Assembly (NCBI GenBank): GCA_027483505.1
Contig: JAIXUP010000006.1
Coordinates: 1 to 64,000 of the forward strand
From: Hyphomicrobiales bacterium
GTDB taxonomy: Bacteria > Pseudomonadota > Alphaproteobacteria > Rhizobiales > Beijerinckiaceae
Length of the DNA: 64,000 nucleotides
Direction of reading: 5' to 3'
Of the stretch, positions 14,006 to 60,721 are shown in pieces. A model generated the notes under the pieces. The model was given only the letters and a program-made list of their open reading frames with translations. It made no database searches and was not told the origin of the DNA. The position numbers were made by a program, and so were the translations under genes. Numbering within the stretch: position 1 is the first letter of the stretch; each line of letters begins with the position of its first letter.

Positions 14006-14012
14006 CGACAAC

Positions 14013-31994: not shown

Positions 31995-33374
31995 TTACGC
32001 CAGGAGGCCCTCGGCATGGGCCCAGTTCTGCGTCTTGACCAGCGCGCGCTCGTAGCGATCGAACAATTCGTCGATCTCCGCTTCCGAAATGATCAGCGGC
32101 GGGCAGAAAGCCACGCGGTCGCCGGCCAGATTGCGCAGGATCAGCCCTTCTTCCTGGGCGAAGGCGCAGGACTTGGCGGCGACAGCCTTCTTAACGTCGA
32201 ACTGCTCGCGGGTGTGCTTGTTGCGGACGAACTCGATCCCGCCGATCAGGCCGACGCCGCGCGCTTCGCCGATCATCGGATGCTCGCGCAGGCGTTCCAG
32301 ACGGGCGAGGAAGCGCGGGGCCACCTTCCGCACGCGATCGATGATCTTGTCGCGATGGTAGATCTCCAGCGTCTTCAGCGCCACGGCGCAGCCGACAGGG
32401 TGGCCCGAATAGGTGTTGCCATGGCCGAAGGTGCCAATCTTGCGGCTCTGGTCGACCAGCACGTCATGCATGTGCTCGGGGATGAAGATGGCGCTGAGCG
32501 GGAAATAGGCCGAGGTCAGCGCCTTGGCGCAGGAGATGGTGTCGGGCTTGCAGCCCAGGGTCGTTGATCCGAACCAGTTGCCGGTGCGGCCGAAACCGGT
32601 GATCACCTCGTCGGCGATCATCAGAACGTCGTACTTGTTCAACACGGTCTGGATGGCCTGGAAATAGCCCTTTGGCGGCACGATGGCGCCGCCGGCGCCC
32701 ATCACCGGCTCTGCGATGAAGGCCGCCACCGTGTCCGGCCCTTCGCGCAGGATCATCTCCTCCAGCTCCGCCGCCATGCGCGCCGAGAACGCTTCCTCCG
32801 TCTCGCCCTCGTGGCCGAAACGGTAGTGATGCGGGCAGGAGGTGTGCAGGATGCCCTGGATCGGCAGGTCGAAGTCGATGTGGTTGTAGGGCAGGCCTGT
32901 CAGGGAGGCCGAGGCGACGGTTACGCCGTGATAGCCCTTCAGACGGGCGATGAACTTCTTCTTTTTCGGCCTGCCAAGCGCATTGTTCATGTACCAGATC
33001 ATCTTGATCTGGGTGTCGTTGGCGTCCGAGCCCGATGAGCCATAATAGATCTTCGAGACCGGCATGGGCGCGATCTCCTTGAGCTTCTCGGCCAGTTCGA
33101 TGGCCGGGTCATGGCTGCGGCCGGAGAACAGGTGGGCGAAGGGCAGCTTCGCCATCTGTTCGCGCGCGGCCTCGACCAGCTCTCCATTCGAGTAGCCGAG
33201 CGAGGTGCACCACAGGCCCGAAAGCCCTTCGATGTAGTCCCGTCCCGCGCTGTCGAAAACGCGCACGCCTTCGCCGCGTTCCAGCACCAGGGGCCCGGCC
33301 TCGCGGTGCGTCGCCAGGTTCGTGTAGGGATGGACGAGTGTTTCGATGTCGCGGACTTGTGCGTTGGTAAGCAT
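31995..33374 (-). CDS. Class III (omega) PLP aminotransferase
   Basis: LWCTSLGYSN, YYGSSGSDANDTQIKMIWYMNNALGRPKKKKFIARLKGYHG, ADEVITGFGRTG, K in SCAKALTSAY; ATG at 33374, longer ORF rejected. Confidence 0.93.
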   Translation of the reverse strand: MLTNAQVRDIETLVHPYTNLATHREAGPLVLERGEGVRVFDSAGRDYIEGLSGLWCTSLGYSNGELVEAAREQMAKLPFAHLFSGRSHDPAIELAEKLKEIAPMPVSKIYYGSSGSDANDTQIKMIWYMNNALGRPKKKKFIARLKGYHGVTVASASLTGLPYNHIDFDLPIQGILHTSCPHHYRFGHEGETEEAFSARMAAELEEMILREGPDTVAAFIAEPVMGAGGAIVPPKGYFQAIQTVLNKYDVLMIADEVITGFGRTGNWFGSTTLGCKPDTISCAKALTSAYFPLSAIFIPEHMHDVLVDQSRKIGTFGHGNTYSGHPVGCAVALKTLEIYHRDKIIDRVRKVAPRFLARLERLREHPMIGEARGVGLIGGIEFVRNKHTREQFDVKKAVAAKSCAFAQEEGLILRNLAGDRVAFCPPLIISEAEIDELFDRYERALVKTQNWAHAEGLLA

Positions 33375-33570: not shown

Positions 33571-34743
33571 ATGCGGACACCTGTTCGGAATGCGAACAAA
33601 TTATCGGACGGCGGAGCCGGGCCGCAGCCGCGCCCCGGTGTCGGATTGATCGTCAATCCGGTCGCTGGTCTGGGCGGGGCGGTCGGCCTGAAGGGCACGG
33701 ACGGCGCGGCTGCCCAGCAGGCACTGGCGCTTGGGGCGAGGCCGAAATCGCAAGTCCGCGCGGCACGCGCGCTGGAACTGTTGTCCGCGCTGAAGAACCG
33801 GATCGACCTTGTTTGTGCGCCGGGCGCGATGGGCGCCGATCTCGCCACGTCGCTCGGCTTCAGTTGCCGGACCCTCGGGACAGCAGGAGCCGCCACGACA
33901 TCGCGCGACACACGCGATGCGGCCGCCGCAATGGCTGAGGCCGGGGTCAGCATGATTATGTTTGCGGGTGGAGACGGCACGGCACGCGACGTCTTTGACG
34001 GCGCGCCAGGCGTCGGGCTTCTGGGTGTGCCCACGGGCGTCAAGATGCATTCGGGCGTCTTTGGCGCGTCGCCGGAAGCCGCAGGCCGGGTCGCTGCGCT
34101 GGTCCTCGGCAGCGAGCCTGCGCGCGTCGAGTGGCGCGAAGCCGAAATCATGGACATCGACGAAGAAGCGCTGCGCCTTGGCCATGTTGCAGCGAGGCTC
34201 TACGGCTATGCCCGCTCGCCGCTGGAACGGACGGCCATGCAGAATTGCAAGACGCCATCGCGCCGCGATGACGATCCGGCGCTGGACGCGCTGGCCCGGC
34301 GGATCGTCCGCGAGATGGACCCGGGCATCCTGCATGTGCTGGGCTGCGGCACCACGATGCGCAAGATCAAGCGACAGCTTGGCGGGGAGGGTACCTTGCT
34401 CGGCGTTGACGTCGCCCTGAATGGCCGGCTGATCGCGACCGATGTGGACGAGGCCAGGCTTCTGCGGCTCACAAGCGGCGTGCCGTTCAAGGTCATTACC
34501 AGCGTGACCGGAGGGCAGGGCTTTGTCTTCGGTCGCGGCAATCAGCAGATCAGCGCAGCAGTCCTGCAGCGCGCGGGGCGCGACAACGTGATGATCGTCA
34601 CGAGCCAGAGCAAGCTGGTCATGCTCGACCCGCCATGTCTTCGCGTCGATACGGGCGATCGGCAGGTCGATGCGATGCTCGCCGGGTACATGCGGGTTCA
34701 CACCGCCCCGGGTCACACCATGATGATGCGGATCGCCGCATGA
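33571..34743 (+). CDS. ATP-NAD kinase/AcoX-like protein (start uncertain; TTG 33646 possible)
   Basis: VGLIVNPVAGLGG, FAGGDGTARDVFD, GVPTGVKMHSGVFG. Confidence 0.85.
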   Translation: MRTPVRNANKLSDGGAGPQPRPGVGLIVNPVAGLGGAVGLKGTDGAAAQQALALGARPKSQVRAARALELLSALKNRIDLVCAPGAMGADLATSLGFSCRTLGTAGAATTSRDTRDAAAAMAEAGVSMIMFAGGDGTARDVFDGAPGVGLLGVPTGVKMHSGVFGASPEAAGRVAALVLGSEPARVEWREAEIMDIDEEALRLGHVAARLYGYARSPLERTAMQNCKTPSRRDDDPALDALARRIVREMDPGILHVLGCGTTMRKIKRQLGGEGTLLGVDVALNGRLIATDVDEARLLRLTSGVPFKVITSVTGGQGFVFGRGNQQISAAVLQRAGRDNVMIVTSQSKLVMLDPPCLRVDTGDRQVDAMLAGYMRVHTAPGHTMMMRIAA

Positions 34744-34756
34744 CACCCCCCTTCCC

Positions 34757-36187
34757 GTGACGATGAGAGGAGCCGGCCCTGTGAGTCCGACCAACGCCAT
34801 AGCCCATCCCTACATGGCCAACTCGGTGCCCGAGATCAAAGCGGCGATGCTGAAGGACATCGGCGCCAAGTCCATCGCCGAACTGTTCGAGCAGATTCCG
34901 GCCGATCACCGCATGAAGAAGCCGCTGAAGCTGGCCCCCGGCATGCGCTCGGAGGCGGACCTCAAGAAGCATCTGGTCGGCCTGCTGCGCAAGAACAGCA
35001 CATGCGAGTCGCATCTGAGCTTTCTCGGCGCCGGGATCTGGCAGCATCATGTCCCGGCCATCTGCGACGAGATAGGCACAAGGTCGGAGTTCCTGACCTC
35101 GGTCTGGGGCACGGCTATGTCGGATCATGGCCGCAACCAGGCCTGGTTCGAGTTCTGCGCCCAGCTTGGCGAACTGGTCGGCATGGAGTTCGTCGGCCTG
35201 CCCGTCTACTCTTGGGGCTGCGCCGCGGGCAACGCCATCCGCATGGCGGCCCGCATCACAGGGCGCTCGGAAGTGCTGGTTCCGGAGACGCTCTGCCCCG
35301 AGCGGCTCGCCGTGATCCGGCAATACTGCGAGCCAGCGGAGATGGCGCGGCACATCAAGGTCGTCCCGATCCGGCATGACGCGAAGACCGGCCTGATCGA
35401 CCTCAAGGATCTCAAGGCGCGCCTCTCGGACAGGACCGCCGCCGTCTACTTCGAGAACCCAGGCTATCTCGGCATGATCGAGACCCAGGGAGCCGATATC
35501 GCGCGGATGGCCCGAGCGGCGGGGGCCGAGACCATTGTCGGCGTCGACCCGATCTCGCTCGGCGTGCTGGCCCCGCCAACTGACTATGGAGCGGACATCG
35601 TTGTCGGGACCATCCAGACGCTTGGCGTGCACATGAGCGCCGGGGGCGGCGCGGGCGGCTTCATCGCCTCGCGGGACGAGGAGGTCTACGCCCGCGAATA
35701 CCCGACGCTGAACATCTCGATCACCGATACGACGCATCCCGGCGAGGTCGGGTTCGGCCTGACGCTGTTCCACCAGTCGTCCTACGGGCTGCGTGAGGAG
35801 GGCAAGGACTGGACCGGAAACTCGGTCTACCTCACAGCCATCCAGAACGCGGTCTACATGTCGCTGCTCGGTCCCGAAGGCTTCCGTGAAATCGGAGAAC
35901 TGATCATCGCGCGCGCCCACTACGCCGCCCGGCGGATCGGCGCGATCAAGGGCGTGTCGGTCAACTGGCCAGCCGGCTTCTTCAAGGAGTTCGTCGTCGA
36001 TTTCTCCCGCACCGGCAAGACCGTGGCGAAAATCAACAAGGCGCTGCTGAAGCGCGGAATCTTCGGAGGCAAGGACCTGTCGAAGGACTTCCCCAAGCTC
36101 GGCCAGAGCGCGCTCTATGCCGTCACCGAATGCCATGGCGCTGACGACATTGATCGTCTGGTCGCCGCCCTCAAGGAGATCCTGTGA
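34757..36187 (+). CDS. Divergent glycine dehydrogenase (decarboxylating) subunit 1-like, GcvPA-like
   Basis: DIGAKSIAELFEQIP...LSFLGAGIWQHHVPA...RSEFLTS; GVDPISLGVLAPPTDYGADIVVG. Confidence 0.82.
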   Translation: MTMRGAGPVSPTNAIAHPYMANSVPEIKAAMLKDIGAKSIAELFEQIPADHRMKKPLKLAPGMRSEADLKKHLVGLLRKNSTCESHLSFLGAGIWQHHVPAICDEIGTRSEFLTSVWGTAMSDHGRNQAWFEFCAQLGELVGMEFVGLPVYSWGCAAGNAIRMAARITGRSEVLVPETLCPERLAVIRQYCEPAEMARHIKVVPIRHDAKTGLIDLKDLKARLSDRTAAVYFENPGYLGMIETQGADIARMARAAGAETIVGVDPISLGVLAPPTDYGADIVVGTIQTLGVHMSAGGGAGGFIASRDEEVYAREYPTLNISITDTTHPGEVGFGLTLFHQSSYGLREEGKDWTGNSVYLTAIQNAVYMSLLGPEGFREIGELIIARAHYAARRIGAIKGVSVNWPAGFFKEFVVDFSRTGKTVAKINKALLKRGIFGGKDLSKDFPKLGQSALYAVTECHGADDIDRLVAALKEIL

Positions 36188-37791
36188 TGAGGACGCCATC
36201 AAAAGCCATGCCGACCGTACGTGAAGTGCATCAGGCGCGCTGGAACGAGCCAGTGGTGATGGAGATGGGCGTCCCCGGCCGGCGCGGCGCGGTCTATTCA
36301 GCGCCGGAGGCCGTCGTCGAGAAGGCCGTCGGCAAGGCGGCGGATCTTGTGCCGGCCGCGATGCGCCGCAAGAACCGCCCTGCCTTGCCCGAAATGACCG
36401 AGCCGGATGTGCTGCGGCATTACCTGCACCTGTCGCAGATGGTTCACGGCATGATGGGCGTGAACCTGTTCGGCACCTGCACCATGAAATACAACCCGCG
36501 CATCTCGACCCATCTGACGCTCCGCCCCGAACTGGCGACGCTCCATCCCTACCAGCCCGAGGAAACCCTTCAGGGCCTGCTGGAGATCGTGCACAGCTTC
36601 GACCTGATCCTGCGCGAACTGTCGGGCATGGACCAGTTCGTGTTCCAGGCGGCCGGCGGCGCGGGCGCGGCCTATACCCATGCCTGCATCACGCGCGGCT
36701 ACTTCCAGGCGAGGGGCGAACTGGCGCAGCGCAACGAGATCATCTCGACGATCCAGACCCATCCCTGCAACCAGGCCACCGCGGCGACCGCCGGCTTCAA
36801 CGTCATCACGCTGCCGCTGGAGGAGAACGGCTATCCCTCGATCGAGGCCTTGCAGGGCGCCCTGTCGAACCGCACGGCCGCGCTGATGGTCAACAATCCG
36901 GACGACATGGGCGTCTACAATCCGCAGATCAAGGACTGGGTGAAGCTGGTCAAGAAGGCGGGCGCGCTGGCCTTCTACGACCATGCCAACTTCAACGGCG
37001 TGATGAGCAAGATCAGGGCGCGCGAACTGGGTTTCGACGCCTGCATGTTCATGCTGCACAAGACCTTCGGCGGCCCCAAGGGCGGCGGCGGTCCCGCGGT
37101 CGGGGCCTATGGCTGCAGCGCCGAGCTTGCGCCCTTCCTGCCAAAGCCCATCGTGCGGCTTGACGACAAGACGGGACGCTACCGGCTTGATGCCGACCGC
37201 AAGCTCAGCGTCGGCAAGGTGCGCGAGTATTTCGGCAATCTGCAGGTGGTGTTCTACGCCTATGCCTGGGCGCGGGCGATGGGCGGCGACGGCATCACGG
37301 AGGCCTCCGATCTTGCGGTGCTCGCCAACAACTACATGGAGAAGAAGCTCCTCGCGATCCCGGGCGTGGTCAAGTCGCAGCCGCAGATGACCATGCATCG
37401 CATGGAGATGACGCGCTACGGGCTTGGACCTCTCAAGGAGGAAACCGGCATCGGCATCGTCGAGGTCGGCGCGCGCATGACCGATTACGGCGTCGACAGC
37501 CCGTGGCTGAGCCACGAGCCCTGGGTCGTGCCGGAGCCTTTCACGCCCGAGCCGGGCGAGTTGTGGTCCAAGGAGGACATCGACTACTGGATCGCGGCGC
37601 TGGCCAAGGTTTGCGAGGAGGCCCGCACGAACCCTGATCTGGTCCGCACGGCCCCGCACAACGCCGCGATTCACGCGATCAACGGCGCGCGGCTTGATGA
37701 TCCGGCCTGGTGGGCCACGACCTGGCGGGCCTACAAGCGCAAGCAGGCGCCTGCCGCCAGGGCGGGCGGGAAGGCTGCTTCCAGCCGATGA
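36184..37791 (+). CDS. Divergent glycine dehydrogenase (decarboxylating) subunit 2-like, GcvPB-like
   Basis: NLFGTCTMKYNPRIS, LHPYQPEETLQGLLE, PLP lysine context MLHKTFGGPKGGGGPAVG. Confidence 0.84.
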   Translation: MMRTPSKAMPTVREVHQARWNEPVVMEMGVPGRRGAVYSAPEAVVEKAVGKAADLVPAAMRRKNRPALPEMTEPDVLRHYLHLSQMVHGMMGVNLFGTCTMKYNPRISTHLTLRPELATLHPYQPEETLQGLLEIVHSFDLILRELSGMDQFVFQAAGGAGAAYTHACITRGYFQARGELAQRNEIISTIQTHPCNQATAATAGFNVITLPLEENGYPSIEALQGALSNRTAALMVNNPDDMGVYNPQIKDWVKLVKKAGALAFYDHANFNGVMSKIRARELGFDACMFMLHKTFGGPKGGGGPAVGAYGCSAELAPFLPKPIVRLDDKTGRYRLDADRKLSVGKVREYFGNLQVVFYAYAWARAMGGDGITEASDLAVLANNYMEKKLLAIPGVVKSQPQMTMHRMEMTRYGLGPLKEETGIGIVEVGARMTDYGVDSPWLSHEPWVVPEPFTPEPGELWSKEDIDYWIAALAKVCEEARTNPDLVRTAPHNAAIHAINGARLDDPAWWATTWRAYKRKQAPAARAGGKAASSR

Positions 37792-37828
37792 GACAGGTTG
37801 CGATGATCGAAGGTGCGAGGTCACAGCC

Positions 37829-38473
37829 ATGGCCCTGACCATCTACGGCGCGGCCCGGACCCGGACATCGCGCGTGCTCTGGATCGCGGAGGAACTTGGC
37901 CTCGCCTACCGGCACGAGAAGCTCGCGCCGCAGAAGGGCGAGACCCGGACCGCTGCCTTTCTGGCGCTGAACCCGATGGGCCGCGTGCCGGCGATCGATG
38001 ATGACGGCCTGATCGTCTGGGAGTCGCTGGCGATCAACCTGCATCTGGCGCGGAAGTACGGTGCAGCAGCCTCCGCTGGCGGGCCCGCGTTGGGGCCGCG
38101 CGATCTCGGCGAGGAAGCGCTGATGACCCAGTGGACGCTCTGGACGGCAACGGAGTTCGAGCCGGGCGCCCATGATGTCGTTGTCCAGACCATCAACCTC
38201 CCCGAAGACCAGCGCGACCCGGCCAAACGCGATCTGGCGCTTGCCGCCCTGGCGCGGCCGCTCGGAGCGTTGAACACGGCTCTCGGGCTTGGCGGCGGCC
38301 ATCTCGTCGGCGGCCGGTTCACCGTGGCCGATCTCAATGCCGCCTGCGCGGCCTTCTATCTCCGGGCTGTGCCGCACGCGTTCGCGGCCTGTCCGAACGT
38401 GGCCGGCTGGTACGCGGCGACCACCGCCCGTCCGGCCTTTCAGCGCATGCTGGCCTTGAGGGATGCGGGGTGA
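37829..38473 (+). CDS. Glutathione S-transferase family protein
   Basis: MALTIYGAARTRTSRVLWIAEELGLAYRHEKL...LNPMGRVPAIDDDGLIVWESLAI; GGRFTVADLN. Confidence 0.9.
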   Translation: MALTIYGAARTRTSRVLWIAEELGLAYRHEKLAPQKGETRTAAFLALNPMGRVPAIDDDGLIVWESLAINLHLARKYGAAASAGGPALGPRDLGEEALMTQWTLWTATEFEPGAHDVVVQTINLPEDQRDPAKRDLALAALARPLGALNTALGLGGGHLVGGRFTVADLNAACAAFYLRAVPHAFAACPNVAGWYAATTARPAFQRMLALRDAG

Positions 38474-39381
38474 CCCTCCCGCCGGACCCGCCGCATCTGT
38501 GGCCCGAGGAACGCTGGCGGTCGCTGGTGGGGCGCATTCGTGCCGGTCGCAGGTTGCGCCCTGCGGCCTGGAAGGATGGCGCGCGCTGCGCCGTGGCGCT
38601 GTCCTTCGATGCGGACCACGAGACCTTCGAGATGGGTCTGGGCGGTCAGGCCATGGGCCGTTTGGCCTGGGGTGAGTTCGGACGCAGGGTCGGCGTGCCC
38701 CGCATCCTGGCGCTCCTGAAGCGGCATGACGTGCCCGCCACCTTCTTCATCCCGGCGGTGTCGGCCCTGATCGACCCGGACGAGCCGCGCCGCATCGCCG
38801 CAGACGGCCATGAGATCGGCGTTCACGGCTGGATCCATGAGAATAACTCGCTGCTGCCCTACGAGGTCGAGCGCGATCTGATGCTGCGCGCCCGCGAGAC
38901 GCTGGCCCGGCTGTCCGGTCAGGAGCCGGTCGGCCTTCGCTCGGCCAACTGGGACACCTCGCCCAACACGGTGCGCATCGTGAAGGAGATGGGTCTGGTC
39001 TATGACTCGTCCCTGATGGCGGATGAGGAACCCTATGAACTGCTGCTGGATGGCGTTCCAACCGGTCTCGTCGAGGTTCCGGTCGAATGGTTGCGCGATG
39101 ACGCCGTTTATTTCCTCTTCAACCGCAATCCGGCCACCCGCCCTTACACCGCGCCTGCCGATGTGCTGGAGATCTTCCGGCGCGAATTCGATGCCGCCTA
39201 TGACGAGGGCACGGTGTTCCAACTGGTGATGCATCCTTTCGTGATCGGCTACCGTTCGCGGATATGGATCCTCGATGAACTGATCCGCCATGCCCGCGGT
39301 CGGCCCGGCGTCTGGTTCGCCAGCCATGCCGAGGTCGCCGCCTATGCGCGCGACCACGCTGTCGCGGAGGCTGCATCGTGA
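38470..39381 (+). CDS. Polysaccharide deacetylase (NodB-like) family protein
   Basis: ALSFDADHETFEMG, PATFFIPAVSALI, HEIGVHGWIHEN. Confidence 0.88.
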   Translation: MTLPPDPPHLWPEERWRSLVGRIRAGRRLRPAAWKDGARCAVALSFDADHETFEMGLGGQAMGRLAWGEFGRRVGVPRILALLKRHDVPATFFIPAVSALIDPDEPRRIAADGHEIGVHGWIHENNSLLPYEVERDLMLRARETLARLSGQEPVGLRSANWDTSPNTVRIVKEMGLVYDSSLMADEEPYELLLDGVPTGLVEVPVEWLRDDAVYFLFNRNPATRPYTAPADVLEIFRREFDAAYDEGTVFQLVMHPFVIGYRSRIWILDELIRHARGRPGVWFASHAEVAAYARDHAVAEAAS

Positions 39382-40346
39382 ACGCGGAGAGCCAGGAGGC
39401 CGTCGCCGTGGTCGGGGCCGGTTCGATCGGCGTGGCCTGGGCCATTGTCTTTGCGCGCGGCGGCCACGACGTTCGCCTGCAGGATCCGGACGCGGAGCGC
39501 CGCGAGCGGGCCCCGGCCGAGATTGCCCAGCGGCTCGAAGCCCTTGCCGCCGCAGGTCTCATCGATGAGCCGCCCGCTGCGCTCGCGAAGCGGATCACGC
39601 TGCATGCCGACCTTGGCGAGGCGCTGGCTGGCGTGGCGCATGTGCAGGAAAATGCGCCGGAGAGGCTGGAGATCAAGCAGGACCTGTTTGCGGCGTTTGC
39701 ACGTCTTGCACCGCCCGATGCGGTCCTGGCCTCGTCATCGTCGGCGATCACCGCCTCCAACTTTGCACCACCAGACAGCGCGCGGTCGCGCTGTCTGGTG
39801 GTGCATCCCGGAAACCCGCCCTTCCTGATCCCGGTGGTCGAACTGGTTCCGGCGCCGTTCACGGCGAATTCAGTGGTCGAGCAGTGCCGCGCGCGGCTCC
39901 GGCGCTGCGGCATGAGACCCGTGCTGGTGTCCCGCGAGGTGGAAGGCTTCGTCTTCAACCGTCTGCAGGGCGCGATGCTGCGCGAGGCCTATTGCCTCGT
40001 CCGCGACGGGGTGATCGGCGTGGAAGACCTTGACACCGTGGTGCGCGACGGCCTCGGCTTGCGCTGGGGCGTGATTGGCCCGTTCGAGACCGCCGATCTC
40101 AACACCCGCGGCGGCGTGGCCTCGCACGCGCAGAAAATGGGTCCGGCCTATGCCCGCATGGGCGCGGAGCGGGGCCAGCATGATCCATGGACGGAGCCGC
40201 TGGTGGCGCGCGTCGCCGCGGAACGCCGTGCGCTTCTGCCGCTGCAGCAATGGCAGGCGCGGGTGGAGTGGCGTGACCGGGCCCTCATGGCGCTGGTCGC
40301 CGCAAAACAGAGCTTGCCGCCCTTCGAGCCGGAGGAGGGGCCGTGA
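39378..40346 (+). CDS. 3-hydroxyacyl-CoA dehydrogenase/lambda-crystallin (L-gulonate dehydrogenase)-like
   Basis: VAVVGAGSIGVAWAIVFARGGHDVRLQDPD; VQENAPERLEIKQDLF; VVHPGNPPFLIPVVELVP. Confidence 0.88.
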   Translation: MNAESQEAVAVVGAGSIGVAWAIVFARGGHDVRLQDPDAERRERAPAEIAQRLEALAAAGLIDEPPAALAKRITLHADLGEALAGVAHVQENAPERLEIKQDLFAAFARLAPPDAVLASSSSAITASNFAPPDSARSRCLVVHPGNPPFLIPVVELVPAPFTANSVVEQCRARLRRCGMRPVLVSREVEGFVFNRLQGAMLREAYCLVRDGVIGVEDLDTVVRDGLGLRWGVIGPFETADLNTRGGVASHAQKMGPAYARMGAERGQHDPWTEPLVARVAAERRALLPLQQWQARVEWRDRALMALVAAKQSLPPFEPEEGP

Positions 40347-42028
40347 GCGGTCGACTGACCATCACCTTCGAGGACCGCACGATCGGCGCGTTTCCCGGGC
40401 AGAGCCTCGGAGCGGCGCTGGCGGCCAGCGGCGAACTCGCCCTGCGCCATACGGCAGGGGGCGATTGCCGCGGGATGTTCTGCGGCATGGGTGTCTGTCA
40501 GGACTGTCTGGTGACGGTCGACGGCGCACCCAACCAGCGGGCCTGCATGGTCAAGGTGGCCGACGGCATGGTGGTGCGCCGACAGGCGGCACCCGGTGAG
40601 ACGCCGCCTGCGCGGGTGGGTGCCGCGCCGATCCTGTTCGAGAACCTACAGACGGTCACCGCGGATGTGCTGGTGATCGGAGGCGGGGCAGGGGGGCTGA
40701 GCGCTGCCCTGGCCGCGCGCTCCTGCGGCCTTGACGTGCTGCTGCTCGACGAGCGGCAGACGGCGGGCGGGCAATACTACAAGCAGCCCTCCGCGGCCCT
40801 GAAGGCTGAACCGCTCGACCGCCAGCAGCGCGACGGGGCGGCCCTGCGCCAGCGCTGCGAAGGCGCCGGCGTGCGGATCATTGATGGCGCCGAGACATTC
40901 GCCGCGCTTGATGCAGGCTCCGTGATGGCGACCCATGCCGGCCGCACGGCGGTTTACCGCGCTCGGGCGATGGTCATCGCCACTGGCGCCTATGAACGGG
41001 CCGTGCCAATTCCCGGCTGGACGCTGCCCGGCGTGATGACGACCGGGGCCCTGCAGACCCTGTGGCGCAGCCACCGCGCCTTGCCCGGCCGCCGCATCCT
41101 GATCGCCGGCAATGGACCGCTGAATCTGCAGGTGGCTTGCGAGGTCATGGCTGCAGGGGCGGACGTTGTGGCGGTTGCGGAGGCGGCGGCGCTGTTCGCG
41201 CCAGCCCGTGCCGGAGCCGCGTTGCGCATGGTGCTGCACGATCCGGCGCTGACGGCGACGGGGCTTGCGCTGATGGCACGCGCCCGGCTTGGCGGCGCGA
41301 CGCTGCATTTTGGCGCGGTCGCGCGCGGCATTTCAGCCGTCGAAGGCGGGCTTGAGGTCGAACTCGGCAGCGCGACGGGCGGTCACGGCGAACGCTTTGT
41401 CGTTGATGCAGTGGCGTTGGGCTATGGCTTCCAGCCCTCGAACGAGTTGCTGCGGGCGTTGGGAGCCCGGCATGACTACGATCCTGGCATCCGCGCCCTG
41501 CGAACGGTGCGCACGCGCGAGTGCGAAACCACGGTGCCGAACCTGTTTGCCGTCGGCGACGCCTGCGGCCTCGGCGGGGCTCCGGCCGCTCTCGCGGAAG
41601 GAGAGATTGCCGGCCTGGCCATTGCGGAAAGACTGGGCGCCAGGTCACCGGCAGGCGTGTCCGCTGATGCGGCGCATCGTCGGCTCGAAGGCCATCGCCG
41701 GTTTCAGGCGGCCCTCTGGCGCCTCTATGACGCCCCGTCGCCGAGACTGTCGCTGGCGGACGACGCTACGCTGATCTGCCGCTGCGAAGAGGTCAGCAAA
41801 GCCGCCTTGTTGGCCGCGATGGCCGACGGCGAACCGTCGATCGGCGCGGTGAAGCGGCGGACCCGCGCGGGCATGGGGCGCTGCCAGGGGCGCTATTGCG
41901 GACCGCTGATCGCGGCGCATCTGGCGGAGGAGACCGGGCGGCCGCTGGATGAACGCGCGCTGTTCGCGCCGCGTGCGCCCGTCAAGCCGGTGACGATCTC
42001 CGATCTGGTCGGCGGGTCGGCACCATGA
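40343..42028 (+). CDS. Fused [2Fe-2S]-ferredoxin/FAD-dependent amine (opine oxidase alpha-like) oxidoreductase, copy 1
   Basis: N-terminal CRGMFCGMGVCQDC; FAD motif VLVIGGGAGGLSAALAA; C-terminal CRCEEVSKAALL...GMGRCQGRYC. Confidence 0.88.
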   Translation: MSGRLTITFEDRTIGAFPGQSLGAALAASGELALRHTAGGDCRGMFCGMGVCQDCLVTVDGAPNQRACMVKVADGMVVRRQAAPGETPPARVGAAPILFENLQTVTADVLVIGGGAGGLSAALAARSCGLDVLLLDERQTAGGQYYKQPSAALKAEPLDRQQRDGAALRQRCEGAGVRIIDGAETFAALDAGSVMATHAGRTAVYRARAMVIATGAYERAVPIPGWTLPGVMTTGALQTLWRSHRALPGRRILIAGNGPLNLQVACEVMAAGADVVAVAEAAALFAPARAGAALRMVLHDPALTATGLALMARARLGGATLHFGAVARGISAVEGGLEVELGSATGGHGERFVVDAVALGYGFQPSNELLRALGARHDYDPGIRALRTVRTRECETTVPNLFAVGDACGLGGAPAALAEGEIAGLAIAERLGARSPAGVSADAAHRRLEGHRRFQAALWRLYDAPSPRLSLADDATLICRCEEVSKAALLAAMADGEPSIGAVKRRTRAGMGRCQGRYCGPLIAAHLAEETGRPLDERALFAPRAPVKPVTISDLVGGSAP

Positions 42029-43167
42029 GCGGCTTCGATGTGCTGGTGGCGGGCGGCGGCATCGTCGGCATGACTGCCGCGCTCGACCTTGCGCGCGAAG
42101 GCCGGTCGGTGATCATCGTCGATGAGGGCCGGCATTCGGGCACGACGGCGAACGCCGGCAGCCTGCACATCCAGATGCAGAGCCGCTTCATCCGGATGTA
42201 CCCCGAACAGGTGGCCGACCTCGAACGCTCCTTGCCGCTCTATCCGGCTGGGGCGGCGCGCTGGCGGGAATTGGAAGCGGAACTGGGCGCGGATCTGGAG
42301 ATCAAATCCTCCGGCGGGCTGATGGTCGCCGATGATGCCGGGCAGTTCGCCTTCCTCGCAGACAAATGCGCCCGCGAGCGTCGGCTCGGGCTTGATGTGC
42401 ACATGCTGGAGCGGGCCGAGTTGGCCCGGATCGCGCCCTATCTTGGCGAAGCCGTCCATGGCGCCGAACTCTGCGTGGAGGAGGGCAAGCTCAACCCGCT
42501 CAAGGCGAACGAAGCCATCCGCACGACGCTTCAGGCGCTGGGCGTCCAGCGCCTGGACGAGACCGTGATCACGGCGCTTTCACCTGCCGGGCATGGCATC
42601 GAGGCGAGGCTGAGCCACCGCGGCGGTCAGCGCAGCCTGAGCGCCGGACAGGTCATTCTCGCGGCAGGATCGGGCACAGGCCAGCTTGCGGCCATGCTCG
42701 GCGTGACCATTCCCACCGTGGCCGAGCCGCTGCACGTCAACGTTACGGAAGCGACGGCGCCGCTGATCGGCCATCTGGTGCAGCACGCCGAACGGATGAT
42801 CACGATGAAGCAACTCGGCGCGGGGCAGGTCGTGATCGGGGGTGGCTGGCCGGCTCGTTTCACCGGCCCGGAAGAGTTCCCCACCGTCGATCCCGCCAGC
42901 ATGATCGGCAATCTCAGTCTTGCCCAGCACATCGTGCCGCGGCTCGGTTCGTTGCGGGTGATCCGCACATGGGCCGGCGTCAACACAACGACCGACGGCC
43001 AGTGCGTTCTGGGCAAGCTCCCCGGGCACGACAACGTCTTCTCCGCCGTTCCGGGAGATGCCGGCTATACGCTCGGGCCTCTGGTCGGGCGCATGGCCGC
43101 CGCCCTGGCCATGGGCAGGGATCCGGGCCACGACATCGCCCGCTTCACGCCGGCACGCTTCGGGTGA
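42025..43167 (+). CDS. FAD-dependent D-amino-acid dehydrogenase/opine oxidase beta-like, copy 1
   Basis: DVLVAGGGIVGMTAALDLAREGRSVIIVDEG; DAO-family C-terminus; ATGA coupling to previous gene. Confidence 0.87.
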   Translation: MSGFDVLVAGGGIVGMTAALDLAREGRSVIIVDEGRHSGTTANAGSLHIQMQSRFIRMYPEQVADLERSLPLYPAGAARWRELEAELGADLEIKSSGGLMVADDAGQFAFLADKCARERRLGLDVHMLERAELARIAPYLGEAVHGAELCVEEGKLNPLKANEAIRTTLQALGVQRLDETVITALSPAGHGIEARLSHRGGQRSLSAGQVILAAGSGTGQLAAMLGVTIPTVAEPLHVNVTEATAPLIGHLVQHAERMITMKQLGAGQVVIGGGWPARFTGPEEFPTVDPASMIGNLSLAQHIVPRLGSLRVIRTWAGVNTTTDGQCVLGKLPGHDNVFSAVPGDAGYTLGPLVGRMAAALAMGRDPGHDIARFTPARFG

Positions 43168-43194: not shown

Positions 43195-44058
43195 TCAGTC
43201 CCTGACCAGTGCGTTGATCCGGTCTGTCGCTTCCAGCAGTTCCGGCAGGAAACGGCTGCGCATCTCTTCGGGCGTCACGCGCGCGCTCGGGCCGCAGACG
43301 TTCAGCGCGGCAATGATCTCGCCGGAGCGCGAACGGATCGGCGCCGAAACCGAGCGCAGCCCGACTTCAAGCTCCTCATCGACGACCGACCAGCCGACGC
43401 GGCGCGTCTCGTGGATGATGTCCCGCAGCTTCCCCTTGGCCGTCACCGTCTTGACCGTGTGGGCCGTCGGTTTGATCGAGCTCATGGCCTGCTCAAGCGC
43501 CTCGTCCACCAGCCCTGACAACAGGACGCGCCCGATCGAGGTGCAGTAGGCCGGAAGCCGCGTGCCGACCCTGATGCCGACGTTCACGAGGCGGGCGGAG
43601 TGCGCGATGTGAACCACATAGAGCACGTCTGTGCCATCAAGGACGGCGCCGTAGCAGGACTCGCCAAGCTTCTCGGACAGCTCCGCCACGATCGGCCGCG
43701 CGCTCTCCCAGAGGCTGGCGGAGGAGATCACGGAGTGGCTGAGTTCCAGCAGCTTCGGCGTGAGCTGGAAGCGCTTGCCGTCCGTGGCCATGTACCCGGC
43801 ATGGGCAAACGTGAGCAGGAAGCGGCGCGCGCTGGCGCGGCTCATTCCGGCGTACTCGGCCACCTCGGACAGCGTCATCCTCGGCTTATGGCGGCTGAAC
43901 ACCCGCAGGACATCGAAAGCTTTCAGCACCGACCCCACGATTTCGCGGTCTGCATTGCCCCGGTCCTGCAAGGCATCGGGGTCGCCCTCGGCCACGGCCT
44001 CATCAAGATCCCCCGGACGCAGGTCCTTGAGGCGGGAAGACGGATGGGATTGCAGCAT
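43195..44058 (-). CDS. IclR-family transcriptional regulator (PcaR/PobR-like)
   Basis: SVLKAFDVLRVFSRHKPRMTLSEVAEYAGMSRASARRFLLTFAHAGYM. Confidence 0.93.
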   Translation of the reverse strand: MLQSHPSSRLKDLRPGDLDEAVAEGDPDALQDRGNADREIVGSVLKAFDVLRVFSRHKPRMTLSEVAEYAGMSRASARRFLLTFAHAGYMATDGKRFQLTPKLLELSHSVISSASLWESARPIVAELSEKLGESCYGAVLDGTDVLYVVHIAHSARLVNVGIRVGTRLPAYCTSIGRVLLSGLVDEALEQAMSSIKPTAHTVKTVTAKGKLRDIIHETRRVGWSVVDEELEVGLRSVSAPIRSRSGEIIAALNVCGPSARVTPEEMRSRFLPELLEATDRINALVRD

Positions 44059-44234
44059 GGTATCCTCGTTCGAACGCCCCTGATGTAGCCCGGATGCCTG
44101 ATTCCGTCGATAGCGCCTTTGGTTGTCCTTCGGCAGCCTTTCCGCCCTTTCGGTCAAGCGCGCATCCCTGCTTCGATTGCATGGCGCGGCATCCGGCAGA
44201 GGTTGCGGGGCGGCTGTGCCACGGCGTCACTGAT

Positions 44235-44408: not shown

Positions 44409-45752
44409 ATGAGCAAGACCGTTTCTCAGTCCGGGCATGGTGTGTCGCGCCGCGCGGTTCTCGCCGGCATGGGCGCTGCCGGAAGCATGGCGGCTGCCGG
44501 CACGATGCCGACGCCGGCCACGGCGCAGACTGTGACCTTGCGGTGGTGGTCGCCGCAGACGGCTCCGGCGCAGCGCGAGGCCTACAACTTCCAGATCCAG
44601 ACCTTCGAGGCGGCCAATCCCGGCGTGAAGGTCAACTTCGAAGCGACCTCGGACGAAGGCTATCCAGCCCAGATGGCGGCGGCCTTCGCCTCGGGACAGG
44701 TGCCGAACGTGGTTACCCACCTGCCGTCTTTCGCTGTCTCGAGCTACTGGCAGAATGGCCTGCTGGAGCCGTTCAACGACGTCATCAACATGATCGGCCC
44801 GCAGAACTTCTTCGAGGGCGCCAACCGCATCTACGAGGTCACGCCCGGCCAGTTCGCCGGCACGGGCATCGGGGGGTCGGCCGCCAACATGATGTGGCTG
44901 CGCTCCGATCTGATGCGCGAGGCCGGCCTGACGACGCCGCGTACCTGGGATCAGTTGCGCGCCGCCTGCCAGCGTCTCCAGCGCGCCCCGGTGTTCGGCG
45001 CGCCGCTGCCCTATGCCCGCAACTCGATGACCTCGCTGATCTTCATCACCTTCGTTCATGGTGCCGGCGGCTCGATCTTCACCCCGGACCTGCAGGTCAA
45101 TGTCGAGAACGACGCCTTCCGCAATGCGCTCGAGTTCTACAAGTCGATGCGCGAATTCTGCCCGCCGGGCGCGACCAACTATTCATGGGGCGACAGCCTG
45201 ACGGCCTTCGTCTCGGGCGCGACCGCAACCGGCATCTACACGGGCCGCGTGCTCGCCAACGTGGCGCAGCAGAACCCGCGCATCGCCGATTTCATCAGCT
45301 GCCAACCCTATCCAACCATCAGCACCAGCGTTCCGCACTGGACCTTCAACGACTTTCCGTCGGTGATGATCCCGAAGGGCGCGCCGAACCTCGACGTGAC
45401 CAAGCGCTTCGCGGCGCACCTGTTCCGGGCCGACGGCTATATCCGCCAGCTTCATGCCGCGCCGGGCCACGTGCTGCCCGTGTTGAAGACCGTCTACGAG
45501 AGCGCCGCCTATCAGGAAAACGCGCTGATCAAGAAGTATGCGGCGGATGTGCAGATCATGTCGCAGCAGGCTTCCGCCGGGCACAACCTCGGCTGGGAGA
45601 CAGTCCGCCACAAGCCGAACACCAAGGCGGGCCAGATCGTCGCCAGCCATGTCTTCGCCGAAGCTGTCCAGCGCTATGTCGGCGCCAACGAGCCGATGGC
45701 CCAGGTCGTGTCGGGCGTCGCGCGCCGTCTCGAAGAGCTGATGCGCGCCTGA
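44409..45752 (+). CDS. ABC transporter extracellular substrate-binding protein (family 1), Tat-like signal
   Basis: SRRAVLAGMGAAGSMAAAG...; LRWWSPQTAPAQREAYNFQIQTFEAANPGVKVNFE. Confidence 0.9.
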   Translation: MSKTVSQSGHGVSRRAVLAGMGAAGSMAAAGTMPTPATAQTVTLRWWSPQTAPAQREAYNFQIQTFEAANPGVKVNFEATSDEGYPAQMAAAFASGQVPNVVTHLPSFAVSSYWQNGLLEPFNDVINMIGPQNFFEGANRIYEVTPGQFAGTGIGGSAANMMWLRSDLMREAGLTTPRTWDQLRAACQRLQRAPVFGAPLPYARNSMTSLIFITFVHGAGGSIFTPDLQVNVENDAFRNALEFYKSMREFCPPGATNYSWGDSLTAFVSGATATGIYTGRVLANVAQQNPRIADFISCQPYPTISTSVPHWTFNDFPSVMIPKGAPNLDVTKRFAAHLFRADGYIRQLHAAPGHVLPVLKTVYESAAYQENALIKKYAADVQIMSQQASAGHNLGWETVRHKPNTKAGQIVASHVFAEAVQRYVGANEPMAQVVSGVARRLEELMRA

Positions 45753-45831
45753 TTCCCGCTCGCGCGTCCCGCGGGTCGTGGCAGCATTGCCGCGACCCGT
45801 TTGTTTCCATGGTCGGCAGATCGTCAGGCAG

Positions 45832-46731
45832 ATGAGCGGCAATCCACTCGACAAGCGCTATGCTGTGCTGGGCGCCATGCTGATCGCGCCGACGGTGCTG
45901 ATCTTCTGTGCCGTGATCGTCTATCCGCTGGTGTCGGCGCTCTATCTGAGCCTGTTCACGATCTTCACCCCGACCTTGCGCGGCAGCTTCATCGGTCTTG
46001 GCAACTACGCCTATCTCGTCAACTCTCCCGAGTTCTGGCGCTCGCTCTGGAACACCTTGCTCTGGACCGTCTGCACGCTGACGCTGCAGATTGTGTTCGG
46101 GGTCGCAGCGGCCTTGATGCTGCACCAGAACATCGTGTTCCGCTCACTGGCCCGCAGCCTGATCCTGTTTCCGTACTTTGTCTCGACCGTGGTGGCCGTG
46201 CTGGTCTGGCGCTGGCTGTTCAATGACCTGTACGGGGTGATGAACCATCTCATGCTCATGGCCGGGCTGATCAAGATGCCGCTCGACTGGCTGGGTTCGA
46301 TGCCCAACGCCATGATCAGCATCATCCTCGTCGGGGCGTGGAAGTATTTCCCCTTTGTCGTGATCGCCGTTCTGGCCCGGCTGCAGACCATCCCGGATGC
46401 GCTCTACGAAGCCGCAAAGATCGACGGCGCGGGAGCCTGGTCGCGCTTTGTCGACATCACCTTGCCGCAGTTGCGCGACGTGCTGGTCGTGGTCGTGCTT
46501 TTGCGTGCCATCTGGGACTTCAAGGAGTTCGATCTGATCTATCTGCTCACCGGGGGCGGGCCGATCATCGCCACGCAGACCTTGCCGCTGATGGTCTACA
46601 AGGACGCCTTTGGCCTCAACGACATGGGGCGGGCCTCCGCAGTGGCGGTCAGCATGATGCTGGTGATGCTGAGCTTCATGGTGCTCTATCTGAAGCTGGC
46701 GGGACGCGGCGAGCGCGAGAGCCAGCCATGA
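45832..46731 (+). CDS. ABC transporter permease (UgpA/MalF type)
   Basis: Multi-TM; PDALYEAAKIDGAGAWSRFVDITLPQLRD. Confidence 0.91.
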   Translation: MSGNPLDKRYAVLGAMLIAPTVLIFCAVIVYPLVSALYLSLFTIFTPTLRGSFIGLGNYAYLVNSPEFWRSLWNTLLWTVCTLTLQIVFGVAAALMLHQNIVFRSLARSLILFPYFVSTVVAVLVWRWLFNDLYGVMNHLMLMAGLIKMPLDWLGSMPNAMISIILVGAWKYFPFVVIAVLARLQTIPDALYEAAKIDGAGAWSRFVDITLPQLRDVLVVVVLLRAIWDFKEFDLIYLLTGGGPIIATQTLPLMVYKDAFGLNDMGRASAVAVSMMLVMLSFMVLYLKLAGRGERESQP

Positions 46732-47558
46732 AGACGCTTGCCGGCCGCATCGCGTTCAACCTGTTTGCCTGGACGGTCGTGCTGGTCACGGCCTTTCCGC
46801 TCATCTGGATGATCCTGACCTCGGTCAAGCCGCAGTTCGAGCTGTTCCGGATTCCGCCGACCTTCTGGCCCGAGCAGATCACCTTCGAGCACTATGTCCG
46901 GCTGATCTACGAGACGCCTTTCCTCAAATACATGCGCAATTCCCTGATCCTCGGCTTCACCACCACGATCGTGGTCGTCGTGGTCGCGACGCTGGGCGCG
47001 CACTCGCTGGTGCGGTTCCGCTATCCGGGCCGTGAGCGGCTGGCCCAGATGGTGCTGTTCACCTATCTCCTGCCATCTGTCGTGCTGATCCTGCCGCTTT
47101 ACCTGATGATGGTCTGGCTCGGCATCGCCAACACCATTTTCAGCCTGGTGATCGCCTATACGACCTTCGCGTTGCCTTATGCGCTCTGGCTGCTGCGCTC
47201 CTTCATGCAGGGCATCCCCGATGATCTCGAAGCTGCCGCTCTGGTCGATGGCGCAACCCGGATGGAGGCCTTTGTCGACGTGATCCTCCCGCAGGCCTTG
47301 CCGGGGATCATCTCGACCTCGCTGTTCACCTTCATCCTCGCCTGGAACGAGTACCTCTATGCGCTGGTGCTGGTGAACACCGACGAGGCCCGTCCCCTGA
47401 CCACGGGCGTGATGAGCATGCTCGTCTCGGCCTTCAACATCGAATGGTCTCTGCTGATGGCGGCCTCGGTGATGATGTCGCTGCCGCTCATCATCATCTT
47501 CGCATTCCTGCAGAAATACCTGACGCGTGGCTTCGGCGCCGGCGGGGTCAAAGGCTAG
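46728..47558 (+). CDS. ABC transporter permease (UgpE/MalG type)
   Basis: IPDDLEAAALVDGATRMEAFVDVILPQALPGIISTSLFTFILAWNEYLYAL. Confidence 0.92.
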   Translation: MKTLAGRIAFNLFAWTVVLVTAFPLIWMILTSVKPQFELFRIPPTFWPEQITFEHYVRLIYETPFLKYMRNSLILGFTTTIVVVVVATLGAHSLVRFRYPGRERLAQMVLFTYLLPSVVLILPLYLMMVWLGIANTIFSLVIAYTTFALPYALWLLRSFMQGIPDDLEAAALVDGATRMEAFVDVILPQALPGIISTSLFTFILAWNEYLYALVLVNTDEARPLTTGVMSMLVSAFNIEWSLLMAASVMMSLPLIIIFAFLQKYLTRGFGAGGVKG

Positions 47559-47560
47559 TC

Positions 47561-48643
47561 ATGGCGGACGTCTCGTTTCAGAAGGTGCGCAAGGCTTTCG
47601 GCTCCGCGGTGGCGGTCAAGTCGCTTGATCTTGCGATCGGCAGCGGCGAGTTCGTCAGCCTGCTGGGCCCATCCGGCTGCGGCAAGACGACGACGCTGCG
47701 CATGCTGGCCGGGCTGGAGTTCCCGACCGAGGGGGAGATCAGGATCGGTGACCGCGTCGTCAACGCCGTGCCGCCGGGCCAGCGTGACATCGCGATGGTT
47801 TTCCAGAGCTATGCGCTCTACCCGCACATGAGCGTGGGCGAGAACATCGCCTACCCGCTGAAGAAGCGCGGCGTGGGTCGCGCCGAGCGTGACGCCAAGG
47901 TGGCCTCAGTCGCAGCGACCCTCCAGCTTGGCGCCCTGCTGGATCGCAAGCCGCGCCAGTTGTCGGGCGGCCAGCAGCAGCGCGTCGCGCTCGGCCGGGC
48001 ACTGGTGCGTGATCCGAAAGTGTTTCTGCTCGACGAACCCTTATCCAATCTCGACGCCAAGCTGCGCGCGCACATGCGCGCCGAACTGATCGAGCTGCAT
48101 CGCAAGCTCGGCAAGACCTTCATCTATGTCACGCACGACCAGCTCGAGGCGATGACCATGTCAGACCGCATTGCGGTCATGCACGAGGGTGACCTTCAGC
48201 AGTTCGGGGCGCCCATGCAGGTTTATGAGAAGCCGGCAAATCTGTTTGTCGCCGGCTTCATCGGATCGCCTGCGATGAACCTGCTGCCGGGGATGATCGA
48301 GTCCTCGGGATCGGGCCTGGCCTTTGTGAGGCAGGGCCTGCGGCTGGCTGTTGGCGCCGGGGGGCAGGCCGGGCAGAAGGTGACGATCGGGGTCAGGCCC
48401 GAGGATATCGCGCTCGGCTCTGGCCCGTTCGTGGCGACGGTGCGCATCGTCGAGCCCACCGGCCACGAGACCATCGTGATGGCCGATATCGGCGGGCAGT
48501 CGGCGATCGTCCGCGTCCAGCCGGATACGGCGCATGTCGTCGGATCTGAGACCCCCTTCGCCGTCAGGACCAGCCGTTTGCATGCCTTCGACAGCGTCAC
48601 GGGCGCACGGCTTGACCTTGCCTTTGCGCCGCCTGCGAGCTGA
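47561..48643 (+). CDS. ABC transporter ATP-binding protein (UgpC/MalK type)
   Basis: [56 protein letters not shown]-like C-terminus. Confidence 0.94.
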
Positions 48644-48688: not shown

Positions 48689-49597
48689 ATGGATAAGAAC
48701 AGCGTCAATTGGGCCGGCCCGATGCCAGCCGTCACCACGCCCTTCGACCGCAGCGGAGCTCTCGACCGGCCAGGTTTCCGCGCCAATGTCGACCGTCTGA
48801 TGAAACTCGGCGCGACCGGTGTCGTGGCCAGCGGCTGCACTGGAGAATTCTGGAGCCTGTCGCTTGAGGAGCGCAAGGCAGTCTATGCCGATGCGGTCGC
48901 GGCGGTGGCCGGGCGCGGCACGGTCATTGTCGGCGTCGGATGCGTCGGGCCAGCCGAGACCATTGCGCTGGCGCGCGAGGCGAAGGCGGCCGGCGCCGAC
49001 GGCGTGCTCGTCTTGCCGCCCTATTTCGTGAAGCTGTCCGATGACGAGATTTTCGCCCACTACAAGACCGTCAACGCGGCCGTCGATCTGCCGATCATGG
49101 TCTACAACATCCCCGGCAATGCCGTGAATGCCGTGACGCCAGCCCTTGCCGACCGGCTTGCCGACCTCGACAAGGTGGTGGCCATCAAGGAGAGTTCGGG
49201 CGACTGGAACAATTTCTACGCCACGATGATCACCGTGAAGGACCGGCTGCGGGTGTTCTGCGGCCCGTCCTCGGTGTTCGGTGCACCGGCCGTCGGGCTC
49301 GGCGCGGACGGCACGGTGGATTGCTTCCCCAATGTCTGGGCCGGCTGTCTCGACATCTACTACGCCGCGCGTGACGGCGACGCGCGCAAGGCGGAAAGCC
49401 TGCAGGAAACCGGGCGACGGATGACAGACCTGTTCATCAGCGGCGGCCGCACGCTCTATCCGGCCACGAAGGCCGCGATGGACATGCAGGGCTTTCCCGG
49501 CGGCGGCATGCCGCGAGCGCCCTTGCAGCCGCTGGAGGGCGAGCCGCTCAAGGGTCTGAAGCGTGGCATGGTCGAGCTTGGCGTGATGGCGGGTTGA
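48689..49597 (+). CDS. Dihydrodipicolinate synthase/N-acetylneuraminate lyase family, copy 1
   Basis: GPMPAVTTPFDRSGALD, GCTGEFWSLSLEER, PIMVYNIPG, KESSGDWNNF. Confidence 0.91.
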   Translation: MDKNSVNWAGPMPAVTTPFDRSGALDRPGFRANVDRLMKLGATGVVASGCTGEFWSLSLEERKAVYADAVAAVAGRGTVIVGVGCVGPAETIALAREAKAAGADGVLVLPPYFVKLSDDEIFAHYKTVNAAVDLPIMVYNIPGNAVNAVTPALADRLADLDKVVAIKESSGDWNNFYATMITVKDRLRVFCGPSSVFGAPAVGLGADGTVDCFPNVWAGCLDIYYAARDGDARKAESLQETGRRMTDLFISGGRTLYPATKAAMDMQGFPGGGMPRAPLQPLEGEPLKGLKRGMVELGVMAG

Positions 49598-49598: not shown

Positions 49599-50381
49599 AT
49601 GGACATCGGATTGAAGGGACGCAAGGCCATCGTCAGCGCGGCCAGCCGGGGCCTCGGGCGGGCATGCGCGTTCTCGTTGGCCAGCGAGGGCGTCGATGTC
49701 ACCATCGTCGCGCGCCATCGCGAGGCGCTGGAGGCCACCGCCGCCGAGATCCGCGCCGCAACAGGCGTGAAGGTCACGACGGTCGCCGCCGATGTGAACA
49801 CGGCGGACGGGCGGAACGCGATCCTTGCCGGCTGCCCCGAGGCGGACATCCTCGTCTGCAATCCCGGCGTCAGGCAGGTCCCCGGCGATTTCCGCGGCTG
49901 GGAGCGCGATGAATGGTTGCGCTGGTGGGACGACCACTTCTTCTCGGCGATGGACCTGATCCGTCGCGTCACGCCCGGCATGTGCGAGCGCAGGTTCGGG
50001 CGTGTCGTCTCGATCTCGGTCAGCTTCGTCAAGTTCCCGCAGGTCGGCTTCGCCCACAGTCATGCCGCCAGGCTGGGCCTCTCCGGCGCCATCGCCTCGA
50101 TCGTTCGCGAGCTGATCCCGCACAATGTCACGGTCAACAGCGTGTGCCCCGGCCTGTTCGACACCGAGGCGCTGCACACCAACTGGCATGCCCACGCCAA
50201 GCGGTTGAACACGACCTATGAGGCGATCAAGGAAGACCGTCTCAAGGGCTGCCCGGCGGGCAGGCTTGCCGATCCGAAGGAGTGTGGTGATCTGGTCGCT
50301 TACCTGTGCAGCGCGCAGGCCGGGTTCATCACGGGTCAGAACATCGTCAATGATGGCGGTGTCTATCAGGGACTGTTTTGA
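49599..50381 (+). CDS. Short-chain dehydrogenase/reductase (SDR)
   Basis: KAIVSAASRGLGRACAFSLASEG; C-terminal FITGQNIVNDGGVYQGLF; catalytic Tyr position replaced (see findings). Confidence 0.88.
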   Translation: MDIGLKGRKAIVSAASRGLGRACAFSLASEGVDVTIVARHREALEATAAEIRAATGVKVTTVAADVNTADGRNAILAGCPEADILVCNPGVRQVPGDFRGWERDEWLRWWDDHFFSAMDLIRRVTPGMCERRFGRVVSISVSFVKFPQVGFAHSHAARLGLSGAIASIVRELIPHNVTVNSVCPGLFDTEALHTNWHAHAKRLNTTYEAIKEDRLKGCPAGRLADPKECGDLVAYLCSAQAGFITGQNIVNDGGVYQGLF

Positions 50382-52302: not shown

Positions 52303-52342
52303 GCCAACTGCATCATCGCCATCAACCTCGGGAGTGAGCAAC

Positions 52343-58688: not shown

Positions 58689-58751
58689 GCGCATGTCTCC
58701 GCTTCAGGGGCCAGCGTAGCGTGACCTGACGGCGATGTCAGCAGGTTGAGA

Positions 58752-58786
58752 GTTCGCATCGCGAACATGAAGCACGCATCGCGAAC
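58752..58786. promoter_or_regulatory. Tandem candidate IclR operators before TRAP operon
   Basis: GTTCGCATCGCGAAC (58752-58766, perfect inverted repeat) and GCACGCATCGCGAAC (58772-58786), 20-bp period. Confidence 0.6.
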
Positions 58787-58839
58787 TTCTTGCGCCGGTA
58801 TTCAAAACCTGTTTAGTTCGTCGAAAGAGGCCGTCCCCT

Positions 58840-59424: not shown

Positions 59425-59428
59425 TCCC

Positions 59429-60700: not shown

Positions 60701-60721
60701 CAACCAGAGGGAGGAACTGAC

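Follow-up and report, generated by a model that had tools for sequence, protein, structure and literature searches.

The gene pair considered here lies in a 64,000-nucleotide stretch of a Hyphomicrobiales genome (contig JAIXUP010000006.1, positions 1–64,000; hereafter, the window), and its closest described relative is the split P-protein of the glycine cleavage system, GcvPA/GcvPB, as in Thermus thermophilus (1wyt). The two share a two-subunit make-up, overlapping genes, sequence family, the pyridoxal phosphate (PLP)-binding lysine of the HKTF motif and scores above the NCBIfam cut-offs. The window pair differs in that (i) it has no GcvH or GcvT partner, and is used in genomes without them, (ii) a His-to-Lys replacement and two other motif changes occur in all members of its family, and (iii) it is tied to an NAD kinase (NADK)-like gene and to catabolic genes. 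Neighbouring genes also have described relatives. The same fused 2Fe-2S/FAD/BFD subunit and DAO-family partner are found in opine, D-hydroxyproline and HcnBC-type dehydrogenases and in PH1363-type amine dehydrogenases, whereas here they sit in a different, conserved gene neighbourhood. A 3-hydroxyacid dehydrogenase shares the 3HCDH domains of the lambda-crystallin and carnitine dehydrogenase-type enzymes (PRK06129), and passes the PRK06129 cut-off; those relatives lie beside 3-keto-5-aminohexanoate cleavage enzyme (BKACE) genes, whereas here BKACE is normally absent and the GcvPA/GcvPB pair present. The COG3199 ATP-NAD kinase family, which includes AcoX of acetoin operons, shares NADK_N/NADK_C domains and a GGDGT motif with the NADK-like protein, which differs in its near-constant GcvPA/GcvPB partner. 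The new point is that a GcvPA/GcvPB paralogue pair exists outside the glycine cleavage system, and that it is widespread and mis-annotated.

Both proteins pass the NCBIfam equivalog cut-offs for glycine dehydrogenase subunits: the GcvPA-like protein (34781–36187, + strand; PF02347) scores 436 bits with NF001696 (cut-off 364), and the GcvPB-like PLP subunit (36184–37791, + strand) 482 bits with NF003346 (cut-off 441). Because both models accept the pair, RefSeq names such proteins glycine dehydrogenase subunits, as seen on carrier plasmids. Membership of the P-protein family and the presence of the PLP-binding lysine are borne out by Pfam and NCBIfam and by alignment to 1wyt (for GcvPB, chain 1wyt_B). 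Active-site signatures and a tree, on the other hand, set the family apart from canonical P-proteins. In the window GcvPB, Lys293 is the PLP lysine of HKTF, while Lys299 replaces the histidine of the canonical PHGGGG motif. Lysine occupies this position in 87/87 family members; in the canonical set 30 of 31 proteins read as histidine, the exception (L111) being a read of an N-terminal HKTF in a protein whose true motif is PHGGGG. Canonical DGAN has become D[HSTAQN]AN, and HGTN has become HP[CS] plus a variable residue, such that the signatures PHGGGG, DGAN and HGTN, present in the canonical set, occur in 0/87 family members. These changes suggest altered handling of the substrate or carrier. 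In the tree, the family is split from the 31 canonical proteins by a branch with 100% support in the SH-like approximate likelihood ratio test (SH-aLRT), and canonical proteins of a sister species are 31–32% identical to the pair (32% between the two GcvPAs). The pair represents a widespread, mis-annotated family of GcvPA/GcvPB paralogues, distinct from canonical P-proteins.

The window genome is 99.93% complete, and contains no match to GCV_H (the control was detected in 13 of 14 genomes). Neither does it contain a canonical GcvP—the sole GDC-P match over the cut-off is the GcvPA of the locus itself—or a true GcvT. It has three GCV_T matches. One, on contig C37, is a 358-aa frame with MetF-like and homocysteine-methyltransferase-like genes downstream; it looks DmdA-like and was rejected as a true GcvT. 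The second, at 1010 aa, has the size of a sarcosine oxidase alpha subunit, and the third is short and partial. In the sister species (the source of L025), the non-canonical pair exists alongside a canonical gcvT-gcvH-gcvPA-gcvPB operon. DNA beside that operon aligns with 6.4 kb of the window genome at 91%, mid-contig and without N, and at the corresponding site the window genome has ABC transporter and dihydropyrimidinase-like genes instead (L116, G000:C63, versus L111, G297:C72). Apparently, the canonical gcvTHP operon retained by the sister species was lost from the window genome. That GcvH is missing through an assembly gap was judged unlikely, because the gcv flank is mid-contig, contiguous with other genes and free of N; a relocated copy in another gap is conceivable. 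Two further genomes (G021 and G362) carry only the non-canonical GcvPB, with neither a canonical GcvPB nor GcvH; a weak lipoyl match in G021 lies in a 517-aa frame, and G362 has no GCV_H match. Across 88 loci, no gcvT or gcvH match was found near the pair. Given the absence of GcvH, canonical GcvP and GcvT from the window genome, the separate canonical operon of the sister species, and the two further genomes without GcvH, the pair is not part of the glycine cleavage system. It works outside that system and, since it occurs in cells without the partner protein that glycine breakdown requires, very likely carries out a different, undescribed reaction. An earlier reading of the window, made from the sequence alone (the sequence-only reading), had named the two subunits and overlooked that they form a distinct family used without GcvH.

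The consequences extend beyond this genome. Automatic glycine dehydrogenase labels on at least 549 stretches put glycine cleavage into the metabolic models of organisms without it. If the functional interpretation holds, the family would represent a P-protein freed from its lipoyl carrier and turned to other PLP chemistry, within a conserved catabolic pathway that is common to marine, soil and host-associated bacteria.

The distribution of the family was established by scanning GTDB contigs with a GcvPB-like alignment, which gave at least 549 confirmed genomic stretches; 88 loci were fetched and, together with the window, their genes were clustered. Homologues occur in the following numbers of loci: GcvPA 71, NADK-like 69, DapA 45, DAO 41, FeS-FAD 37, 3HCDH 36, the IclR regulator 33, Old Yellow Enzyme (OYE) 22 and an isomerase-like barrel 19. 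The set recurs in gene strings from Rhodobacterales, Hyphomicrobiales, Roseomonas, Burkholderiaceae and Acidimicrobiia, and is borne out by annotated plasmids from Roseicitreum, Paracoccus aminophilus and Antarctobacter. Culturable carriers include Paracoccus aminophilus, Pseudotabrizicola, Rhodococcus jostii RHA1 and Pseudomonas frederiksbergensis. A plasmid search for FeS-FAD homologues at E 1e-60 returned none, a cut-off that was too strict, as annotated counterparts do exist on the plasmids of Roseicitreum and Paracoccus. A chance neighbourhood was rejected, as the set recurs in both Actinomycetota and Pseudomonadota. The sequence-only reading of one catabolic unit thus withstands the check that it had itself named as refuting, a neighbourhood conserved in no other genome. 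Within the Alphaproteobacteria the family is patchy (9/297 genomes of the order, 10/387 of the class). The NADK-like/GcvPA/GcvPB trio also has a second setting (context C), with a PRK08162-type acyl-CoA synthetase, an APC permease and regulators of the TetR or LysR type; a single change on the GcvPB tree is enough to explain the context labels of the loci assigned to B or C. As the trio serves both settings, it should act on a class of substrate that the two have in common. On a haloarchaeal plasmid, genes for DapA, a short-chain dehydrogenase (SDR) and CoA-transferase accompany the NADK-like gene, and the GcvPA/GcvPB pair is located apart from it.

In the window, translation confirmed eight same-strand genes at 33571–43167, which were assigned to families with Pfam and NCBIfam. 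Five of the junctions are 4-nt overlaps (GcvPA/GcvPB, GST/deacetylase, deacetylase/3HCDH, 3HCDH/FeS-FAD and FeS-FAD/DAO), while NADK-like/GcvPA and GcvPB/GST are separated by 37-nt gaps. For GcvPA, whose open reading frame opens at 34757, the GTG at 34781 is the favoured start, with an AGAGGAG ribosome site ahead of it; the glutathione S-transferase (GST) starts at ATG 37829. Of the compared loci, 48 were called as having the 4-nt GcvPA/GcvPB overlap. Overlaps of this kind are a frequent feature of operons and carry little weight by themselves; what goes beyond chance is the conservation of gene content. Promoter-like sites at the operon number 3, against 1.1 expected by chance. The block is real, though it makes up only about a third of the conserved locus (approximately 31995–58694), and the range originally drawn around it leaves out the transporter, the regulator and the DapA/SDR/OYE half. 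The originally named families all stand except one: the gene labelled "HAD" encodes a protein of the 3-hydroxyacyl-CoA dehydrogenase family.

Besides the pair, the eight genes (all + strand) comprise the COG3199-type NADK-like kinase (33571–34743; PF01513/PF20143), the GST-like protein (37829–38473; PF02798), a hydrolase of the PuuE/HpPgdA-type polysaccharide-deacetylase fold (38470–39381; PF01522), the 3-hydroxyacid dehydrogenase of lambda-crystallin/PRK06129 type (39378–40346; NF004783, 446 bits against 347; nearest PDB entry lambda-crystallin), the fused 2Fe-2S/FAD/BFD amine dehydrogenase subunit (FeS-FAD, 40343–42028; PF13510, PF07992, PF04324 and PF17806; nearest PDB entry 1y56_A) and its adjacent DAO-family FAD partner (42025–43167; PF01266, 2.4e-47; PDB 4ysh and 1y56_B). 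The last two are similar to PH1363 and to subunits of sarcosine or glycine oxidase. The deacetylase groups with 3rxz, HpPgdA (3qbu) and PuuE allantoinase. Of about 88 loci, 10 contain it and 9 contain a GST (the window's own GST cluster in 4, another GST in 5); at such frequencies both are lineage-specific additions rather than core genes, which leaves the "amide or ring opening" once proposed unsupported as a core step. Plasmid relatives of the 3HCDH gene adjoin BKACE genes, from which we take the enzyme to act on free 3-hydroxyacids; BKACE itself is present in only 2/88 loci of the pair.

Upstream of the block lies a divergent class-III aminotransferase (31995–33374, − strand; PF00202, 4.5e-87; over the NCBIfam PRK06105 cut-off), whose cluster is represented in 15 loci. 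Downstream follow, in order, the IclR-family regulator (43195–44157, − strand; PF01614/PF09339), a CUT1 sugar-type ABC transporter with binding protein (44409–45752), two permeases and a UgpC/MalK-like ATPase (44409–48643 in all, + strand), a DapA-family aldolase/dehydratase (48689–49597, + strand), two SDR dehydrogenases overlapping by 4 nt (49599–51127, + strand), a second, SoxB/ThiO-like DAO-family FAD enzyme (51139–52356, − strand), a xylose-isomerase-like TIM barrel (52344–53182, + strand, approximate start; PF01261, 1.5e-33; cluster c11), a second DapA-family enzyme (53197–54171, + strand; PF00701, 9.4e-51) and an NADH:flavin oxidoreductase of the OYE family (54168–55295, + strand, approximate start; PF00724, 2.2e-69). 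A minus-strand group of SDR, second FeS-FAD subunit (56138–57952) and SDR (55377–58694) closes the locus. The nearest solved relative of the first DapA-type protein is YagE, a keto-deoxy sugar acid aldolase. PDB relatives of the binding protein are general sugar binders only, and do not narrow down its substrate; some carriers have amino-acid-type ABC transporters in place of the sugar-type one.

The GGDGT motif of the NADK-like protein is present in nearly all homologues. No PDB sequence match, and hence no solved close relative, was found. Its structural model (pLDDT 88.7) is nearest to NADK and diacylglycerol kinase (DAGK), tied, with the similarity mainly in the N-terminal domain, and the Foldseek comparison does not separate NADK, DAGK and other Rossmann-like folds. 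Another pairing of a kinase with a PLP enzyme is seen in Peptoclostridium acidaminophilum (L105, 7998–10074), where the genes for a class I/II PLP enzyme and a COG3199 NADK-like protein overlap.

Taken as a whole, the locus probably serves the catabolism of a nitrogen-containing compound. We give a probability of about 0.6 to a more specific proposal, in which the locus would serve to import and degrade an amino or imino acid that is hydroxylated and N-substituted and possibly derives from a sugar, with the pair acting as an H-protein-independent PLP lyase or decarboxylase. Assigning steps from what is known of each family, (i) the CUT1 transporter would import the compound, under IclR control, (ii) the FeS-FAD/DAO complex would oxidize its C–N bond, (iii) the 3-hydroxyacid dehydrogenase and the SDRs would convert hydroxyl groups to keto groups, (iv) a DapA-type enzyme would split or deaminate a 2-keto acid, and (v) the pair, working without a lipoyl H-protein, would decarboxylate or cleave the resulting alpha-amino (keto) acid, with the NADK-like protein as a near-constant partner of this step, perhaps as a small-molecule kinase. 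No matching pathway was found in the open full-text literature (subscription papers lie outside this coverage), which agrees with the sequence-only reading. The three-step logic offered there is partly supported, in that the FeS-FAD/DAO pair suits the oxidation of an amino acid with a substituted nitrogen.

Several points weigh against this proposal. The proposed substrate and reaction are deduced from gene families, and DapA, DAO and SDR are broad ones. The 80 compared loci are the best-scoring ones and are partly related, and because the genes that define a context label are also those counted within it, the per-context gene counts are not independent tests. H-protein independence draws on three genomes, two of them 90–98% complete, while most other carriers encode GcvH at another genomic site, as would be expected if the two systems were independent. 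Retention of the PLP lysine and of the overall P-protein family leaves some room for glycine chemistry. Indeed, the same retained HKTF lysine, the equivalog cut-offs passed by both subunits, and the GcvH of most carriers could be read as signs of a true glycine-cleaving P-protein pair, which would decarboxylate glycine released by the pathway, with GcvH or a lipoyl domain in some other complex accepting the aminomethyl group. With active-site signatures altered across the whole family, no gcvT or gcvH beside the pair in any of the 88 loci, none of GcvH, GcvT and canonical GcvP in the window genome, and a separate canonical operon in the sister species, we consider this quite improbable.

A variant hydroxyproline (or opine) route would make FeS-FAD/DAO the D-hydroxyproline or opine dehydrogenase, DapA the pyrroline-hydroxycarboxylate deaminase and SSADH the 2-oxoglutarate-semialdehyde dehydrogenase, and leave only a side product to the trio. 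The family resemblances of FeS-FAD, DAO and DapA are in keeping with it, as are SSADH in 9 loci and an AcnX-type cis-3-hydroxy-L-proline dehydratase (NF051439, over cut-off) near the pair in Rhodobacterales genomes (L041, L048 and L049). However, those are just three loci, the nearest solved DapA relative is YagE, and the conserved 3HCDH, OYE, sugar-isomerase-like barrel and trio would go unused, so such a route seems unlikely. Somewhat better placed, though still doubtful, is a specific form of our preferred explanation: a hydroxy-amino (sugar) acid or Amadori-type pathway in which 3HCDH would yield a beta-keto acid that the pair would cleave in place of BKACE. The rarity of BKACE beside the pair, despite its adjacency to 3HCDH relatives, fits this idea, together with the sugar-type transporter, the YagE-like DapA and the isomerase-like barrel; the amino-acid-type transporters of other carriers do not. 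More speculatively, and rather improbably, the trio may form a new three-component enzyme system in which the substrate, a hydroxy- or keto-amino compound, is phosphorylated by the COG3199 kinase and cleaved or decarboxylated, without a lipoyl carrier, by the P-protein-derived PLP enzyme (Lys299 for His). Such a system would take part in two or more unrelated catabolic routes in several bacterial phyla, with the GcvPA/GcvPB pair also in a haloarchaeon.

Adjoining the locus, the window carries TRAP transporter genes and two more PuuE-like deacetylase-fold hydrolases (58746–63798). Beyond its end (L110, 3805–9943, corresponding to about 63804–69942 in window numbering) are genes for an amidohydrolase, an Asp/Glu/hydantoin racemase and an ABC transporter. 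Together, these look like a separate catabolic unit for cyclic amides or hydantoins. Elsewhere in the genome, the DmdA-like, MetF-like and homocysteine-methyltransferase-like genes mentioned above (L109, 1–3011; G000:C37) may provide a methyl-transfer route from dimethylsulfoniopropionate (DMSP)-like compounds. At the other end of the window, positions 1393–15957 hold a photosynthesis gene cluster (including phytoene synthase, chlorophyllide-reductase-like and reaction centre protein genes), and the host organism is therefore probably a phototroph.

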